Origin: Candidatus Eisenbacteria bacterium
GTDB taxonomy: Bacteria > Orphanbacterota > Orphanbacteria > Orphanbacterales > Orphanbacteraceae
Length of the DNA stretch: 55,290 bases
Direction: 5' to 3'
Assembly: GCA_016867715.1 (NCBI GenBank)
Contig: VGIW01000012.1
Span: 1 to 55,290 of the forward strand
Shown: piece after piece, positions 2,726-8,744 of the stretch
How the letters are laid out: the number at the start of each line of letters is the position of its first letter
Position numbering within the stretch: the first letter of the stretch is position 1
Translations under genes and position numbers: made by a program
The notes under the pieces: generated by a model
The model's input: the letters and a program-made list of their open reading frames with translations, nothing else
What the model was told of the DNA's origin: nothing
Databases searched by the model: none

Positions 2726-3208
2726 ATGGATCCCTCGCAAGCGCTTCGAGAATGGCTCGCGAACGAGGAGGAACTCCTGGGATTCCTACAGGAGCGCAAG
2801 TGGTTCAGCAAGCGTTTCCTCGTACTGACCGACCACCGTCTCATCCTCTTCGAGAGGCGGTTCTGGGGTCGCCTCAAGGACCTTAGTGATAAGCAATGGC
2901 GACAGTTCATTGATGTTCATCTCGAACAAGGGTTCTTTTCTTCAAGCATGAGGCTAACCTTCTTCACCTACCATGACTCCATCGCGTATCATGATCCACA
3001 CAATCCCAAGCAAATAGAGGCCCAGGCATGGGTCTTCGACAACTTGGACAAGAAAGGCGCCCGTCATGCCTACGTAATGCTTAAAGCCAAGGAAGGAGAA
3101 TGGAAAGAGAGGCGCCTCCGAGAGCAAATCGAGCGAGAGAAGTCTTGTCGTGCCGTTCACTTCCACGGTGTCCAGAACTTCCCTGAGGGTAGGGATTCTC
3201 CGACCTAA
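2726..3208 (+). CDS. Bacterial PH-domain-like protein
   Basis: 160 aa. The first 90 residues read as a bacterial pleckstrin-homology-like fold: an initial helix (LREWLANEEELLGF), then alternating strands with the typical KRFLVLTDHRLILFE pattern, where a protein describes how its product is displayed as a strand pair. The C-terminal half is helical and highly charged (KEGEWKERRLREQIEREK). There is no signal peptide or membrane helix, so it should be cytosolic or peripheral to the membrane. The ATG follows GAGGTG at a 5-nt spacing. It lies on the same strand as the conjugation operon but about 480 bp before its first gene, so a shared role is only possible. The exact family is uncertain. Confidence 0.7.
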   Translation: MDPSQALREWLANEEELLGFLQERKWFSKRFLVLTDHRLILFERRFWGRLKDLSDKQWRQFIDVHLEQGFFSSSMRLTFFTYHDSIAYHDPHNPKQIEAQAWVFDNLDKKGARHAYVMLKAKEGEWKERRLREQIEREKSCRAVHFHGVQNFPEGRDSPT

Positions 3209-3335: not shown

Positions 3336-3605
3336 ATGGCGATGTCCGGCAGCAAACCAGGACTGAGCACCATTTGGCTTACCGTCGTGAATAGCAGCCA
3401 TAACCGACACGACTATACGTTCGAAACCCTCACCGCCCGCGACCATCGTCAGGGCAAGCAACTAATTGGCCAAGGTGTGATGGTACTCATTGGAGGCTCA
3501 CTGCTATCATTGCTGATCGGGCTCCCTGAGGGTATTGCATTCTGTGTACTGGTCGGGATCGGCATGATCGTCTGGGGGCGTATCAAGATCTGGTCGCCCC
3601 GCTGA
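3336..3605 (+). CDS. Small membrane protein, function unknown
   Basis: 89 aa. The C-terminal half contains two closely spaced hydrophobic segments (about residues 48-62 and 66-82, VMVLIGGSLLSLLIGLP and IAFCVLVGIGMIVWG) ending in a basic tail, as in small two-helix membrane proteins. The N-terminal 40 residues are polar. The start is weak: AGGA lies only 2 nt before the ATG. A competing short frame, GTG at 3299 to a stop at 3394 (31 codons, MTERFYDPVWQEYGD...), has a better Shine-Dalgarno site (GGGGGAGA), so the true gene start or even a frameshifted longer gene is possible. No family recognised. Same strand as the operon that follows. Confidence 0.45.
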   Translation: MAMSGSKPGLSTIWLTVVNSSHNRHDYTFETLTARDHRQGKQLIGQGVMVLIGGSLLSLLIGLPEGIAFCVLVGIGMIVWGRIKIWSPR

Positions 3606-3690
3606 AGTCGGCAGGGCCTTCCACCCTGTGTGGTGGCGCGGTCTCATCTGAGATTCAGTTGAGCGAAAGGGACTTCCAGAGTTGCTCGCC

Positions 3691-4038
3691 ATGAGCGGTT
3701 GGAATCGCATCCGAATGGCACTGCGGAAGCTTCAGCGCTTCCTCCTACCCGACCGAGGTCGCTCGAGGACCAAGGGCTCTCGGCGTCACTTCATCACATA
3801 CCACGTCACACCCCCCGAAGCCCTTAGAGGTACTGAACCGGTCGGCTTCCCGCCTCTCCGTCGCGCCTCCCGCCGTCGACGCCGCGGGGCCGGACAAGGC
3901 ACAGATCCATCGTACGCCTCCTTCCGCATAGCGGCTCGTACACGACCTAAGCAGTGTCCCTTCTGCCGAAGTCGCGAGAGTGTAACCCGATCCTCCTCGG
4001 ATGGTTGGCAATGTAGAACCTGTGGATATCTCTGGTAG
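3691..4038 (+). CDS. Zinc-ribbon protein preceding the E1-like gene
   Basis: 115 aa from the ATG at 3691; a TTG at 3682 in frame is an alternative, and neither has a strong ribosome binding site. The only recognisable part is the C-terminal zinc ribbon, CPFCRSRES then CRTCGYLW, two CxxC knuckles in the last 30 residues. The middle is a basic, probably disordered linker (RRASRRRRRGAG). The stop is 25 nt before the GTG start of the E1-like gene, so it is probably the first gene of the conjugation operon. A zinc ribbon could bind nucleic acid or a protein partner. Whether it is a substrate adaptor or unrelated cannot be told from sequence. Confidence 0.55.
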   Translation: MSGWNRIRMALRKLQRFLLPDRGRSRTKGSRRHFITYHVTPPEALRGTEPVGFPPLRRASRRRRRGAGQGTDPSYASFRIAARTRPKQCPFCRSRESVTRSSSDGWQCRTCGYLW

Positions 4039-4063
4039 CTATCATGAAACGAGAGGAAAGACG

Positions 4064-5431
4064 GTGACAGATTTTTCGCTGCTGTCGATATCAGATCCCG
4101 AATTGAATCCATTTGACCGACAGGAACGAATGTCCTGGTGGGACGCGAAGAAGGTGAGCTCTTCCACCTTGCTCGTCGCCGGGGCGGGCGCTACTGGCAA
4201 CGAAACTCTGAAGAATCTAGCACTTCTGGGCGTGCGACGAATACTAGTCGCAGATTTTGACAAGATAGCCCTCTCGAACCTGAGTCGCACTGTGCTCTTC
4301 GCCAGAAATGACCTTGGCAGGAGCAAGGCGCGCATTGCTGCCAAGCGCACTCGGCAGATGTGCCTGGCGGAAGATCCACAGATCGATTGTTTTGACGGAG
4401 ACATCGTATGGGATCTCGGCACTGGCGTTTACATGGAGATGGACCTTGTCTTCGGTTGCCTCGACAATGCCGAGGCTCGGCTGGCCATCAATCGCCAATG
4501 TTGGCTGGCCAATACTCCCTGGATCGACTCCGGGATTCTGGAATTGGGGGCGCACGTAGCCACATACATACCTCTTGAGGGGCCCTGTTACCAATGTGGA
4601 ATACGGCGGGAGACCCTTGCTTCTGCACGCACTCGGTATTCCTGCGACGATTTCAAGAAGTCTTTACTTGCAGAAGGAAAGCTGCCAACGGTTCAGGTAA
4701 CCTCCGCGCTGGCTGCGGCCCTTCAAGTGCAGGAAGGCATGAAGCTGCTCTGCGGGCGGACAGCCAAAGGTGGGCGCTATTTTCACTACGATGGAAACAC
4801 AAACACACTGGATACTTACGACACGCAGGCAACGCCGAACTGCATCGCATGCACTACTTATCCTGGTGTCCATGCTCTGGGAGCATCTGCGGAGATGACG
4901 GTGCGGGAGTTTCTGACCTACGTGAGTGATGCCAAGTTGTCCGGCCGCGGTGCAACTCTCGATCTGCGAGGCGACAGGACATTTGTCTACAGTATCCGTT
5001 GTCCCGGATGCGGAAGAGCCCGACGCCTTCTGAAACCCTCATTCAAGCTTTTCGACACGGACGCATACTGTCCTCGTTGTAGACGGCGGATCCCGGAACA
5101 TACGGGCCCCCCGAATGATGTTCCGGCGGAGAAAACTCTCCTGCCAGCCCTCTCATTGCAGGCGAGTGAAGACCCGGTGCTGAATCTCAGACTGCGAGAT
5201 CTCGGTATTCCATGGTACCATGTCGTTTCTGTGCAGGATGCCGGGGGAGAGTATCGGTACTACCTCTTGGGCGCGGATCGCTCCCGAGTGTTCCCAAGCA
5301 TTACAATGCAGTCTCGTATTGGGCGCTCTCAGGAGAAGGAGACGACTGTCACCCGACGCCAGCTGATAGAAGTTTCCAGGTTACGGAGAGACCAGAAAGG
5401 AGAGGAATCGCAATGGCCGAGATCAAGGTGA
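4064..5431 (+). CDS. E1-like (ThiF/HesA/MoeB family) Ubl-activating enzyme
   Basis: 455 aa. The GTG at 4064 is chosen because GAGAGGAAAG lies just upstream; an ATG at 4001 would overlap the previous gene. Residues 30-230 form the adenylylation domain: GAGATG at 40-45 (nucleotide loop), Asp64/Asp66, Asn72 and Arg75 in LSNLSR, Lys88 in LGRSK, and catalytic Asp134 in CLDN. Two CxxC pairs at 175-178 and 260-263 match the structural zinc of ThiF/MoeB. Cys194 (RYSC), in the crossover loop before the VTSALAAALQVQEGMKLL helix, is the best candidate for the thioester cysteine. Residues 313-339 add an extra zinc ribbon (CPGC...CPRC), followed by a C-terminal LGIPWYHVVSV segment like that of other bacterial E1s. 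It should adenylate the Ubl encoded next. Its 3' end overlaps that gene by 19 nt. Confidence 0.9.
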   Translation: MTDFSLLSISDPELNPFDRQERMSWWDAKKVSSSTLLVAGAGATGNETLKNLALLGVRRILVADFDKIALSNLSRTVLFARNDLGRSKARIAAKRTRQMCLAEDPQIDCFDGDIVWDLGTGVYMEMDLVFGCLDNAEARLAINRQCWLANTPWIDSGILELGAHVATYIPLEGPCYQCGIRRETLASARTRYSCDDFKKSLLAEGKLPTVQVTSALAAALQVQEGMKLLCGRTAKGGRYFHYDGNTNTLDTYDTQATPNCIACTTYPGVHALGASAEMTVREFLTYVSDAKLSGRGATLDLRGDRTFVYSIRCPGCGRARRLLKPSFKLFDTDAYCPRCRRRIPEHTGPPNDVPAEKTLLPALSLQASEDPVLNLRLRDLGIPWYHVVSVQDAGGEYRYYLLGADRSRVFPSITMQSRIGRSQEKETTVTRRQLIEVSRLRRDQKGEESQWPRSR

Positions 5432-5670
5432 CCTTTGTCCATCCAACTGATGGGCGCAATGCGACCGTGACGCTCGATGACACTATGACACCCGAGGAGG
5501 CGATTGCGGAGTTAATTACCAATGACTTTATCGCTCCTAGCACGTTCGGGTACTGTCTCGGGAAGAAGGGTGGCGACCGGCTCGCGAACGACGTCGGACT
5601 TGGCCACGGGGGAGTTAAGGACGGTGACAAGCTTACCGTGATCCCAAACACCGATGCTGGAAGGCATTGA
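5413..5670 (+). CDS. Ubiquitin-like beta-grasp protein (putative modifier)
   Basis: 85 aa, a single domain. The pattern fits a YukD/EsaB-like beta-grasp fold: strand (IKVTFVHPTDG), strand (NATVTLDDTMT), main helix (PEEAIAELITNDF), then LGKKGGDRLANDVGLGHGGVKDGDKLTVIP, whose closing VKDGDKLTVIP resembles the last ubiquitin strand. The C-terminus is NTDAGRH, with no diglycine. If it is conjugated, the reactive end would be unusual, or the two residues after Ala-Gly would have to be trimmed, perhaps by the JAB protein encoded in the same operon. GGAGAGG lies 7 nt before the ATG. The start lies inside the end of the E1-like gene, and the E2 gene starts 12 nt after the stop. This linkage is the main reason to call it the modifier. 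Confidence 0.82.
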   Translation: MAEIKVTFVHPTDGRNATVTLDDTMTPEEAIAELITNDFIAPSTFGYCLGKKGGDRLANDVGLGHGGVKDGDKLTVIPNTDAGRH

Positions 5671-5682
5671 GAGGAGCCACCC

Positions 5683-6219
5683 ATGCCTAGCCCCCAACAA
5701 GCACGTCTAGTCCGCCTGAAGAACGATTATCAGGAAATGCTGAACATCAAGGGTGCGGTTGTCACTTGGCATGCCATAGGCGGGTCTCCTCCATACCTTG
5801 AGGAATATGAACTTGCTGTAAGGGTCCGCACGATCATCGGCCCCGGTCCATCTTACCGGGAAGAGCATCGCATTGGGGTTAGGCTTCCCCCTTCCTATCC
5901 GGTCTCCCCGCCCCTAATAGTTATGAAGAGCTCCCCACAGCCGTTTCACCCAAACTGGTTCGCAGATGGACGGTGGTGCTGTGGACCCTGGACCCTAGAA
6001 GGTTTGGGCCAGCACGTTGTGAGAATGATACGGACCCTGCAGTTCGATCCAGAAATAACGAACCCGGATAGCCCCGCCAATCGGGAAGCAAACACCTGGT
6101 ATCTAGAGCATCGCGAACGTGGGATCTTCCCCTGTGACCGAAAAGGACTTCCGGATCCGACGCAATCCCGTTTCGTCATGCAAAAGGAGACACTGAAGAA
6201 GACGTTCCGAATGGAGTAG
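5683..6219 (+). CDS. E2-like (UBC-fold) conjugating enzyme
   Basis: 178 aa. The UBC fold is clear: LPPSYPVSPP at 68-77 (the YPxxPP loop), then FHPN at 88-91, then DGRWCC, then the NPDSPANREA motif at 127-136 that closes the E2 core. Cys99 aligns with the E2 active-site cysteine (HPN, a short spacer, G-x-[IVW]-C); Cys100 follows directly and could confuse mutational tests. Asn91 takes the place of the HPN asparagine. The protein should receive the modifier from the E1 and pass it to a target. The C-terminal 40 residues are an extension without recognised motif. GAGAGGAG lies 6 nt before the ATG. Only 51 nt separate its stop from the JAB gene. Confidence 0.9.
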   Translation: MPSPQQARLVRLKNDYQEMLNIKGAVVTWHAIGGSPPYLEEYELAVRVRTIIGPGPSYREEHRIGVRLPPSYPVSPPLIVMKSSPQPFHPNWFADGRWCCGPWTLEGLGQHVVRMIRTLQFDPEITNPDSPANREANTWYLEHRERGIFPCDRKGLPDPTQSRFVMQKETLKKTFRME

Positions 6220-6270: not shown

Positions 6271-7509
6271 ATGCCAAAGACGAAACTCCCGCCCGACCAT
6301 TCGAGGTTAACTGAGCAAATGGTGGCGATCGAACGACAGCGGTGGATTACTCAGGACCTTAAGGCTCTTGGAGCTCTATTAGATGGGAAGCAGGAGTCAA
6401 TACGGCTACTGAAGCAAAGTGGTGAAGGTGTTGACGCGCATGTGTTTCTCTTTGAAACGCGGTTGCCTCTGATCATTGGGGTTGGTGTGGAAGGCCAGAA
6501 CAAGTACAGGATTCCCTTCCACATTAAAGTCACGCTCCCTCGCGGCTATCCCCGAACGGCTTCCCCCATGTTTCGGATCCGCCCCATCCCATATCACCCT
6601 CTGGTGGATCGTCCTTCCTTTTTCCGTAGCTTCTTCACAGATTGGGCTACCTGGACGGGGCGTTTTCCTAACGGCCTGGCTCTCTCGGAGCAACTGGAAT
6701 TGTTGATCCGCTGTCTTGTTCTTATCCCGGAAGCACTGGCCCAGGTGAGCCCAAAGAGCAAATCCGCCGACGTGCAGGGATGGTACCAATCCGTAGTGAA
6801 AAGGGGGAGTTACCCGCTAGGGGCTGAGCGTTTCAGGCAAAGCAGCAGCGGGAGCGGGAAGACGTTTGCCATGGAAACCGAAGTTGTAGCGGGGGGCTCT
6901 GTCGGATCCGCCGCGAACGTGATCGTTAGGAAGCGCTTCGACATCGAGAAGATCACTCCGGCGTATCGTCCGGAGAAAGGGAGCGTCCCCAGGCTGACAG
7001 GTGTTACTCCTTCTAACGCCTCCAAAGCGAGTGGCTCGTATCAACTCATCATCACAAAGAGGGCGGCACGGGATATTCTTGATCACGTGCACTGGGGTGA
7101 GGAGCCGAGGGAGCCACTGCACGAGCAAGGCGGGATACTCCTCGGTTATGCGATCGAAGACATTAGGGCCGGTGTGATTTGCGGGGTCGTGAAACGAGCG
7201 GTGCCAGGAGAGCCATCGCGCGCTTCCAGCGTCTATCTAGAGCTGAATCACGACGCCTGGTGGCGCATGTATGCCATTGTCGATGATCTCTCGAAAGCGA
7301 ATTCCCAGCGCGGCTTGCACATTGTTGGCTGGTATCATACCCATCCAGGGAGTCTGGGCGTCTTCATGTCGGGCACTGATCTCAACACCCAGAGAACAGT
7401 GTTCCGCGCGGACTGGCAGTTCGCTGTCGTGATGAATCCACAACGCTGCATTTGGCGCGCGTACCATGGGCCCCATGCGGAGGAGTGTCTAGGGTTCTTG
7501 GAGGGCTGA
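6271..7509 (+). CDS. JAB/JAMM metallopeptidase fused to an inactive E2-like domain
   Basis: 412 aa in two parts. Residues about 15-160 look like a second UBC/RWD fold: LPRGYPRTASP at 89-99 and YHP at 108-110 match the E2 loops, but no cysteine occupies the active-site position, so this half is probably a binding domain. Residues about 250-412 are a JAB/JAMM peptidase: Glu285 in HEQGGILLG, His356 and His358 in GWYHTHPG, Ser367 and Asp370 in MSGTDLNTQ. These are the zinc ligands and active-site residues of Rpn11-type deubiquitinases. One extra residue lies between the HxH and the serine compared with the usual spacing of seven. It should process the modifier or remove it from targets. The ribosome binding site is weak (CGGGGAAACC). 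Confidence 0.9.
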   Translation: MPKTKLPPDHSRLTEQMVAIERQRWITQDLKALGALLDGKQESIRLLKQSGEGVDAHVFLFETRLPLIIGVGVEGQNKYRIPFHIKVTLPRGYPRTASPMFRIRPIPYHPLVDRPSFFRSFFTDWATWTGRFPNGLALSEQLELLIRCLVLIPEALAQVSPKSKSADVQGWYQSVVKRGSYPLGAERFRQSSSGSGKTFAMETEVVAGGSVGSAANVIVRKRFDIEKITPAYRPEKGSVPRLTGVTPSNASKASGSYQLIITKRAARDILDHVHWGEEPREPLHEQGGILLGYAIEDIRAGVICGVVKRAVPGEPSRASSVYLELNHDAWWRMYAIVDDLSKANSQRGLHIVGWYHTHPGSLGVFMSGTDLNTQRTVFRADWQFAVVMNPQRCIWRAYHGPHAEECLGFLEG

Positions 7510-7556: not shown

Positions 7557-8207
7557 ATGAATACCTATCTCCTGGATTCTCGGAAGCACGCGGCCTTCCT
7601 GGCGGAGGAGCGTATTGATCCATTCACCCGAGAGCCCTTGCGTCCCGGCGACGAGATCGTCATCTGCGCGAGGGATAAGATGGCATTTCATTTGGCTTCC
7701 TGGAACGTACAAAACGGGTGCCCGATCTGCCACTGCACGGAAACTGGCACTCTCCCAGTGTCGACCCGTCACCCGTCGTTCCGGCAGCGGACCAAGCCGC
7801 GGGTGACAGAAGTTGCGGAGAGGAGTATTCCGAGGAGGGAAGCAAGAGGCTCGAGAATCGGCGTCCTTCTCCTCGTCGGGGCTATGGCAGCTGTGGGAGT
7901 GTGGGGCGTTATATTTCGCGTAGATACTAGCTCCCGTGAACGGGCCCGAGCAATCGACCGCCGTGCAATTGCGAGGGGGGCCGTGTCCGCAGAGGTCACA
8001 GCCGTGAACCTGAGGCGCTCACCGGGGTACTTAGGGAAGAGCCTAGCCGACGTCATTAAGGAGGTTCCATCTGGTACTGGAGTGGAAATACTCAATGGAC
8101 CAACGGTGGTGGATGGATTGCCCTGGTGGGAGGTGAGGTGTTTGGGCTCTGCGGGTTGGATGGCGGAGCGGACGACGAGTGGGAAGAAGATCATAGCCAG
8201 GCAGTGA
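7557..8207 (+). CDS. Degenerate RING-like, transmembrane, SH3b protein (candidate E3)
   Basis: 216 aa from the ATG at 7557, whose ribosome binding site is poor. Residues 18-60 follow the pattern of prokaryotic RING fingers (CPYC..PIKPGEEVVVC..C...H..CW...GCPVC), but half the ligands are changed: the first CxxC is DPFT (Asp21, Thr24), then Cys37, Asp40, His45, Ser48, Trp49 and the last pair Cys55/Cys58. One zinc site (Cys37, Asp40, Cys55, Cys58) could survive; the other has only His45, as in U-box-type decay. A single membrane helix lies at 101-120 and an SH3b-like domain at about 148-216 (VNLRRSPG ... LPWWEVRCLGSAGWM). The SH3b part would face the periplasm if the N-terminus is inside. Operon position after E1, Ubl, E2 and JAB genes makes it a candidate E3 or membrane anchor; this is inference. 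Confidence 0.72.
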   Translation: MNTYLLDSRKHAAFLAEERIDPFTREPLRPGDEIVICARDKMAFHLASWNVQNGCPICHCTETGTLPVSTRHPSFRQRTKPRVTEVAERSIPRREARGSRIGVLLLVGAMAAVGVWGVIFRVDTSSRERARAIDRRAIARGAVSAEVTAVNLRRSPGYLGKSLADVIKEVPSGTGVEILNGPTVVDGLPWWEVRCLGSAGWMAERTTSGKKIIARQ

Positions 8208-8672
8208 GCCCAGAGAAGAGGTTGGCGGTATAGCCTGTGTACGAGCGAGTGAGAGGTGTGACGATCGCGAGCACTACAGGAGATAGGCATCCGATCACAG
8301 GGAGAAGGTTCTCGGCGGAGATTTTGGGACGCCATGCCGATTTCGCCCGACCGGCGATCGGGACAAGCCACGAATCGTCCCGAAATAGCCATCGCGTTCA
8401 CAGAACACGAAAGTCCCCTTCCGGCCCCACGACCGGAGCGTGAGACGAGAGCTGCCCACGCCGGGTCGATGCAGGGATGGGCTTTCACGGTGGGCGGGCC
8501 GCTCGGCTTTCTGCTCTCAGGATAGCCGCCGTTTCTTGAAGCGTCGATAGGGGACGCCGGGCGATTCTGTCAAGTGCTTGGTCGCAGGTTCGAGTCTCGG
8601 CCGGGGTGCCCGTTGGTACGCAAACTCTAACCGATTGATATTGATGAAGTTACGAGAGGGGGTTGGGGCTGG
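8208..8672. other. Island edge with a tRNA-like fragment
   Basis: No gene supported. At 8578-8609 the plus strand carries GGTCGCAGGTTCGAGTC followed by a CCGGGG block. This resembles the T-arm and 3' end of the tRNA-Asn gene at 8673-8744 (GGTTGCAGGTTCGAGTC on its coding strand), with a few mismatches that break the T-stem. It is in the opposite orientation to the tRNA gene and lacks the rest of a cloverleaf. It is best described as a decayed tRNA fragment left by recombination at the island border. Confidence 0.5.
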
Positions 8673-8744
8673 CTCCCCGGGCAGGACTCGAACCTGCAAC
8701 CAACCGGTTAACAGCCGGTTGCTCTACCATTGAGCTACCGAGGA
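8673..8744 (-). tRNA. tRNA-Asn(GTT)
   Basis: Complete cloverleaf on the minus strand: acceptor TCCTCGG/CCGGGGA (one G-T pair), D arm GCTC/GAGC, anticodon stem ACCGG/CCGGT with loop CTGTTAA (anticodon GTT), T arm GCAGG-TTCGAGT-CCTGC, discriminator G. CCA is encoded at 8670-8672. The accessory island lies directly on its 3' side, which is the usual target for integrases. Confidence 0.97.

Follow-up and report, generated by a model that had tools for sequence, protein, structure and literature searches.

In U-box and SP-RING domains, zinc ligands of the RING fold have been replaced, and SP-RING keeps one zinc site. Prokaryotic RINGs were reportedly described by Burroughs, Iyer and Aravind in 2011. 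Bacterial RINGs that lack two of the four zinc ligand pairs appear in section 3.8 of PMC11354881, which credits Pisano et al. for the ligand loss. Unlike the half-RINGs considered here, they are given no family, operon or membrane architecture in that section. A term search of the review PMC6274744, which we assume to be that of Pisano et al., gave no match.

RING genes within conjugation operons have also been described. PMC5654768 presents a Ub-E1-E2-srfp-Rpn11 cascade from Caldiarchaeum subterraneum, in which a JAMM protease trims the Ub precursor. Ile30, Trp58 and Arg69 of the archaeal RING matter, and the mutant I30Q abolished ubiquitylation. The locus described here resembles this cascade in its operon logic, the archaeal counterparts being a JAMM-trimmed Ub precursor and a single RING protein acting as E3. 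However, srfp is a small RING-H2 protein with C3H2C3 ligands, whereas the protein studied here is predicted to be membrane-anchored and has one candidate zinc site. The bacterial Bil and Bub operons likewise keep Ubl, E1, E2 and protease together, yet their accounts, in the portions to hand, name no RING (PMC13373217, PMC12687455), while our operon has a half-RING. Further, operons in PMC7159879 carry JAB, E1 and a prokaryotic RING-type E3 as separate genes, as here, and Burroughs 2011 is cited for them. In that account the Ubl and an E2 domain are fused, in FtsH/vWA-MoxR systems, whereas our Ubl and E2 are separate genes.

As kinds, both half-zinc RINGs and operons that carry a RING have been published before. 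The literature searched yielded no family-wide definition of half-RINGs, no link to a single E2 and no report of dozens of membrane copies, although key papers lay outside the search and part of this may be known. The half-RING gene described below is genuine and well conserved, and belongs to a bacterial Ubl-conjugation system. We propose, with a probability of roughly two in three, that its product is a membrane-anchored, E3-like adaptor of this ubiquitin-like conjugation system.

The conjugation operon and its relatives

The window is a stretch of 55,290 nucleotides at the start of contig C12, in a 3.5 Mb genome of a Candidatus Eisenbacteria bacterium. The half-RING gene is the last gene of a co-directed operon on the + strand, in which it is preceded by:

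3682 to 4038, + strand: small zinc-ribbon protein, conserved 5′ of E1, aligning with the equivalently placed gene of L014, L017, L090, L091 and L092
4001 to 5431, + strand: E1-like adenylyltransferase of the ThiF type, ending in a zinc-ribbon-like part (ThiF E 3.9e-44)
5413 to 5670, + strand: ubiquitin-like protein (Ubl), C-terminus TDAG-RH, 46-56% identity to three relatives
5683 to 6219, + strand: E2 conjugating enzyme, catalytic Cys99 in HPN..C (UQ_con E 7.5e-6)
6271 to 7509, + strand: E2-like domain without the catalytic Cys motif, joined to a JAMM protease (JAB; E 2.3e-8, JAMM motif)

The E1 is of the ThiF type that marks bacterial Ubl-conjugation operons, and is 47-51% identical to its orthologues in L014, L017 and L031. 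The Ubl weakly matches ubiquitin by profile (best E 0.007), and the E2 matches UBE2A in a PDB profile search (E 4.8e-10). Within the E2 motif HPNWFADGRWC, the catalytic C99 is invariant in 4 of 4 sequences, and HPN or HPH followed by C is found in all 20 E2s of related operons. The JAMM motif is present both in the window JAB and in 17 of 17 JABs of related operons. In PADLOC, the E1 (BilD E 1.8e-7; E1-E2 8.3e-13) and the JAB were the only ones of five operon proteins to match, short of the four proteins by which PADLOC defines Bil. Protein P0001 has no NCBIfam or PADLOC family. The preliminary description of this gene had suggested an E3, and an operon encoding E1, Ubl, E2 and a JAMM protease makes an E3-type role likely.

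Ubls of the close family carry a tail of one to four residues after TDAG (R, K, I, N, RH, EK, YHLC), while several distant Ubls end in LEAG or LEAGA. Such tails would suit trimming by the JAMM protease, by analogy with the archaeal system, for which trimming has been demonstrated (PMC5654768).

A tblastn search of plasmids located eight half-RING domains on one Bernardetia plasmid, the best with 48.5% identity over residues 1-66 (E 1e-8). Within the window the half-RING motif occurs in a single ORF, and it appeared in 0 of 200 mononucleotide shuffles. The shuffles, together with the eight plasmid matches, argue that the motif is not due to chance. A genome scan using an alignment of the plasmid domains, with a pattern that demanded Cys37 and C/D40, retrieved 36 loci, in MAGs of Cytophagales, Thiomargarita, cyanobacteria, Bernardetia and Flexibacter. 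The locus L048 (Flavobacteriales, E 5e-4) proved false and was dropped from the counts, since a search at E 1e-5 shows no half-RING and no E2 in that genome. Single-protein scans returned no match for P0001 in genome contigs and phages, P0003 in viral contigs or P0002 in plasmids, and neither did a search of viral contigs with the alignment A1.

The operon is found again in cyanobacteria and Thiomargarita, and partially in Bernardetia-type bacteria, and additional complete operons come from cyanobacterial genomes. Orthologues of the Ubl (46-56% identity), E2 (49-55%) and JAB are found in L013, L014 and L017, and the order E1-Ubl-E2-JAB-half-RING in L014, L017, L089, L090 and L091, of which L089 and L017 are one contig. 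A Crinalium plasmid carries E1, two Ubl-size genes, E2 and JAB, with no RING gene recognised. Its JAB (L004 6869-7852) has a C-terminal hydrophobic segment, seen by eye, and here the protease, not a RING, may be membrane-bound.

Several details of the related operons differ. JAB ORFs of Cytophagales-type genomes are short, with no room for the N-terminal E2-like domain of the window JAB, and the L017 JAB (3544-4686) stops at residue 380, about 50 residues before the ORF ends of L090 and L091. In Thiomargarita, an 822-residue protein (L014 6045-8510) without a Pfam match at E up to 0.5 lies between the JAB and the first half-RING, and L110 has a start resembling that of this protein.

Zinc sites, predicted fold and membrane architecture

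The half-RING gene and its parts are as follows:

7557 to 8207, + strand: 216-residue protein with RING-like domain, membrane helix and SH3b-like domain
7557 to 7763, + strand: residues 1-69, RING-like domain with a single candidate zinc site, supported by pLDDT and structural ranking
7617 to 7628, + strand: D21-P-F-T24, conserved, where a RING would have its first CxxC (site 1)
7665 to 7676, + strand: C37-A-R-D40, second ligand pair (site 2), from conservation
7689 to 7703, + strand: H45..S48-W49, conserved, with S48 at the place of the last site-1 ligand
7719 to 7736, + strand: C55-P-I-C58-H59-C60, in which the alignment shows H59-C60 conserved and C55 and C58 extra
7854 to 7919, + strand: membrane helix, residues 100-121, from model and hydropathy
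7986 to 8171, + strand: SH3b-like domain, from alignment, model and Pfam score

The ORF, its start and its coordinates were confirmed, and the residues on which the preliminary description had been built (D21, T24, C37, D40, H45, S48, C55 and C58) are all present. That description had site 1 stripped of zinc ligands, and this is borne out across the family. In place of the eight ligands and two sites of a classical RING, site 1 of the window protein consists of D21, T24, H45 and S48. No Cys occurs at position 21 or 24 in 45 relatives found by motif, which have D21 in 44, T24 in 43, and I, V, Y or F at residue 23 in all 45. This set leaves out L048 and one ORF at a contig edge, and its regular expression demands Cys at 37 and 40, so that both are fixed by construction. 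That demand was absent from the copy-number, co-occurrence and profile counts. Among 47 distinct profile-found domains, including 30 from one contig of genome G092, D21 and T24 occur together in 45 (two gaps), C37 and C40 in 46 (the remaining one a gap), the HC pair at 59-60 in 46, and S or T at 48 and W49 in all 47. Within G092 itself, 30 of 30 domains have D and T at 21 and 24. In an alignment of 39 rows, comprising the window protein and 38 of the 45 motif-found domains, columns R19, C37, W49, C60 and T65 are invariant, and H59 is present in at least 90% of rows.

Distant operons show the same replacement: in L093, L097, L098, L126, L127, L130 and L131 positions 21 and 24 are not Cys and the remaining site-1 positions are occupied by H and S, and the distant operon type reads D-P-L-D with H45 and S48. 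Since D21 and T24 are nearly universal and the distant operons also lack site-1 Cys, the replacement is, on these alignments, an old and family-wide trait and not damage to the window gene. This overturns the earlier proposal of a decay like that of the U-box. Recent decay of a true RING toward a U-box in the window lineage would explain the missing site-1 ligands and the fact that the window alone lacks Cys40. It is nevertheless very improbable, as nearly all relatives, distant operons included, share the replacement, and a U-box lacks zinc ligands at both sites, whereas C37 and C60, candidate ligands, are invariant here. Section 3.7 of PMC11354881 likewise describes the U-box as having no zinc site. 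Pfam gave no U-box model among matches up to E 1 for the window protein or E 0.1 for family members, and no SP-RING model among the matches of either.

The second site is less as first described. Its proposed ligands were Cys37, Asp40, Cys55 and Cys58. Cys37 stands, being invariant; Asp40 is found in the window alone, its place in relatives being taken by Cys; and Cys55 and Cys58 are not conserved. The former lies within a window-specific insertion of the alignment, and the column of the latter holds K/R/T/S/Q and similar residues in relatives. Loss of these two cysteines in homologues had been named at the outset as evidence against the assignment, and they are missing from 37 of the 38 other rows, extra loop cysteines occurring only in L014:9995 (CCKDC). 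The conserved His59-Cys60 pair was absent from the proposed set. Conservation points to C37, C40, H59 and C60 as candidate zinc ligands of the family. For the window protein, a single zinc is expected from C37, C60 and some of D40, C55, C58 and H59. We infer that the half-RING domain keeps at most one zinc, at site 2.

One of the nearest described families is Prok-RING_1 (PF14446), prokaryotic RINGs that have in common with half-RINGs the C4HC3-type spacing, a hydrophobic residue between the first pair, and the vvC..C stretch. At E up to 0.1, 36 of 39 half-RING members match its Pfam model, and the window protein scores 15.8 bits whole and 19.0 as a domain, below the cut-off of 29.1. However, the eight-ligand Prok-RING_1 proteins L114, L118, L119, L124 and L128, from the same phylum, keep Cys at the first pair, while operon-type half-RINGs do not. 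In four of these five (L114, L118, L124 and L128), the last pair has the C-x4-C spacing seen in C55-x4-C60 of the window protein. Active RINGs carry an Arg/Lys after the last ligand; the window protein and most close relatives do not, and N, E, G, D, Q and others stand after HC in these relatives; in most distant-type operons this residue is R. Compared with the archaeal RING, the Ile30-like position is hydrophobic in half-RINGs too, but the window protein lacks the Arg/Lys after the last ligand (PMC5654768).

Structure prediction agrees with a RING-type fold. In the AlphaFold2 model, mean pLDDT is about 94-96 for residues 1-50. For residues 51-70 confidence is lower (block means 60-75), so that the modelled site geometry there is provisional. 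VIA-align placed RING domains at ranks 1-22 throughout, many of them solved with E2, the resemblance covering residues 1-64. The leaders were those of RNF38 (Z 7.2, rmsd 2.2, 60 residues aligned), RNF165, RNF12, RNF13 and RMR1, at Z 7.2 to about 4.7, and other zinc folds followed at Z 4 to 4.7. With the domain alone, the leaders were unchanged (Z 6.9), while bacterial NleG2-3 reached Z 5.0 and the Prp19 U-box Z 3.9. All structural Z scores are below 8, and the resemblance of this predicted model to the RING treble clef is a modest one. Foldseek, one of the structure checks first suggested, gave nothing significant, with no match below E 0.1 (best E 0.14 and 0.21). A PDB profile search with the RING domain matched no RING by sequence; its match to DUN1 (E 0.58) was taken as chance.

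The membrane helix holds up, as the one hydrophobic segment of the protein covers residues 101-119 and the model has a helix at 100-121. The SH3b domain claimed for the C-terminus is partly supported: strands are modelled at 176-203, and the C-terminus can be aligned to SH3_3 regions in two proteins of Thiomargarita (L014), themselves slightly below the cut-off (E 1.3e-5 and 2.1e-5), whereas the SH3b-like part by itself reaches SH3_3 at E 0.25 only. The layout of half-RING, membrane helix and SH3 is seen again in these two proteins, and L112 of genome G624 has an SH3-like stretch resembling theirs beside a half-RING match. In the first half-RING protein of L014, the sequence is K/R-rich before the membrane helix and less basic after it, a charge pattern that suits a RING domain inside and SH3 outside. 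Both helix flanks of the window protein are Arg-rich, so that its topology is weakly indicated. The RING-type domain probably lies on the cytoplasmic side of the inner membrane.

Co-occurrence with E2, copy number and proposed function

Across 622 genomes searched, E2 is present in all 16 that carry half-RINGs. In the order of G009 (194 genomes), half-RINGs and E2 occur in the identical 8 genomes, and in the order of G008 (42 genomes) in the identical 2. In the phylum of G010 (386 genomes), where at most the best 9 and best 15 candidates were scored in the two scans, E2 occurs in 13 and half-RINGs in 6, all within the 13. Genomes G007, G008, G009, G010 and G011 are in these sets because they are half-RING carriers, and without them the count is 11 of 11. 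Fisher tests on the co-occurrence took no account of relatedness among the genomes. Of the other seven E2 genomes in the phylum of G010, G210, G219, G253 and G416 have weak half-RING matches in the operon region, and G232 has one on a different contig. The cyanobacterial G236 and G501 have no match in the operon region examined, so that the system may run without a half-RING.

This association bears on another reading, in which the domain is a decayed zinc finger that survives only as a protein-binding fold with no tie to conjugation. Loss of site 1, the Asp40 of the window and modest fold scores would all suit such a finger. It is made improbable by the operon position, by the presence of E2 in every half-RING genome and by the strong conservation of residues over 30 paralogues.

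Copy number presents a striking asymmetry. Bernardetia-type genomes have one E2, whereas their half-RINGs number from 8 to at least 30; most of these have membrane segments, and many lie away from the E2. Half-RING matches number 39 in G009, 17 in G011 and 12 in G007, with one E2 each, and G092 has at least 30 half-RINGs on one contig and one E2. Copies in the order of G009 were counted among no more than 30 scored candidates per genome. By hydropathy, 47 of 49 half-RING ORFs have a membrane segment (29 of 30 in G092). Their C-terminal parts vary, including SH3 (L014), TPR (L023), RDD-like (L025) and PPC-like (L090) matches, among which TPR alone passes the Pfam cut-off.

These copies could be read differently, with half-RINGs that do not stimulate transfer but act as membrane docking sites or preferred substrates that bring E2 or Ubl to the membrane. 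The Arg/Lys missing after the last ligand in the close family and the loss of one zinc site are consistent with this, and up to 39 copies per genome with varied C-termini (TPR, RDD, SH3, PPC-like) would suit a set of targets. We nevertheless consider it unlikely, since all 45 relatives retain a hydrophobic residue between the first two ligand positions, and the nearest folds are RINGs that bind E2.

We favour an E3-like adaptor, for which the following sequence of events can be envisaged. The JAMM protease would trim the short tail after TDAG, E1 would activate the Ubl, and E2 would carry it as a thioester on Cys99. At the inner membrane, the RING-type domain would bind the charged E2 by a surface to which the hydrophobic residue flanked by positions 21 and 24 contributes, while polar contacts around D21, T24 and S48 would substitute for zinc site 1. 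The half-RING would thereby promote Ubl transfer to nearby proteins, from which the JAMM protease may also be able to remove the tag. On the opposite side of the membrane, the SH3b domain may act as a sensor of cell wall or of a partner in the envelope, and perhaps gates the E3-like recruiter.

The pattern of one E2 and many receptors is the more interesting part of the finding. We speculate, tentatively, that dozens of membrane-anchored RING receptors, each with one zinc and with a different membrane or extracytoplasmic part, work with one E1/Ubl/E2 set, and that envelope signals choose the targets. If true, this would be a bacterial counterpart of eukaryotic E3 multiplicity. We recognised no paper on RING expansions of the Bernardetia type, a weak absence given that Burroughs 2011 and the Bub and Bil papers were outside the search. 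Of the parts of bacterial ubiquitin-like systems, E3 proteins have been explored least, and the half-RING family provides a defined set of E3 candidates tied to a single E2. Should the Bernardetia-type paralogues be E3s, the design of one E2 with many E3s arose in bacteria too, and membrane-coupled tagging would become testable in a small reconstituted system. Genomes G204, G219 and G232, which have eight-ligand RINGs outside the operon as well as half-zinc RINGs with E2, offer a natural within-genome comparison of the two types.

Genomic surroundings

The operon has a G+C content of about 0.55-0.58, against 0.61-0.65 in the adjacent ribosomal-protein stretch, and of seven genomes from the phylum, only that of the window has the JAB gene, which is absent from the other six. 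Low G+C and this absence are the only hints of operon transfer. One further feature adjoins the operon:

8670 to 8744: tRNA-Asn gene, just 3′ of the operon

The 3′ end of the tRNA-Asn gene is not repeated elsewhere in the window, and no attachment site was seen. On the 5′ side of the operon lies an ORF for a NucS-like nuclease (386-1096; NucS_C E 8.6e-10; PADLOC candidate PDC-S02, E 5.1e-19), possibly in a defence-like region. GC-rich interspersed repeats of a 34-nt family with the core TTCCACAGGCGGGAGCG occupy 1144-2465, in seven copies and two clusters, and positions 2726-3208 encode a protein with a weak match to a bacterial PH domain (bPH_3 E 0.0075).
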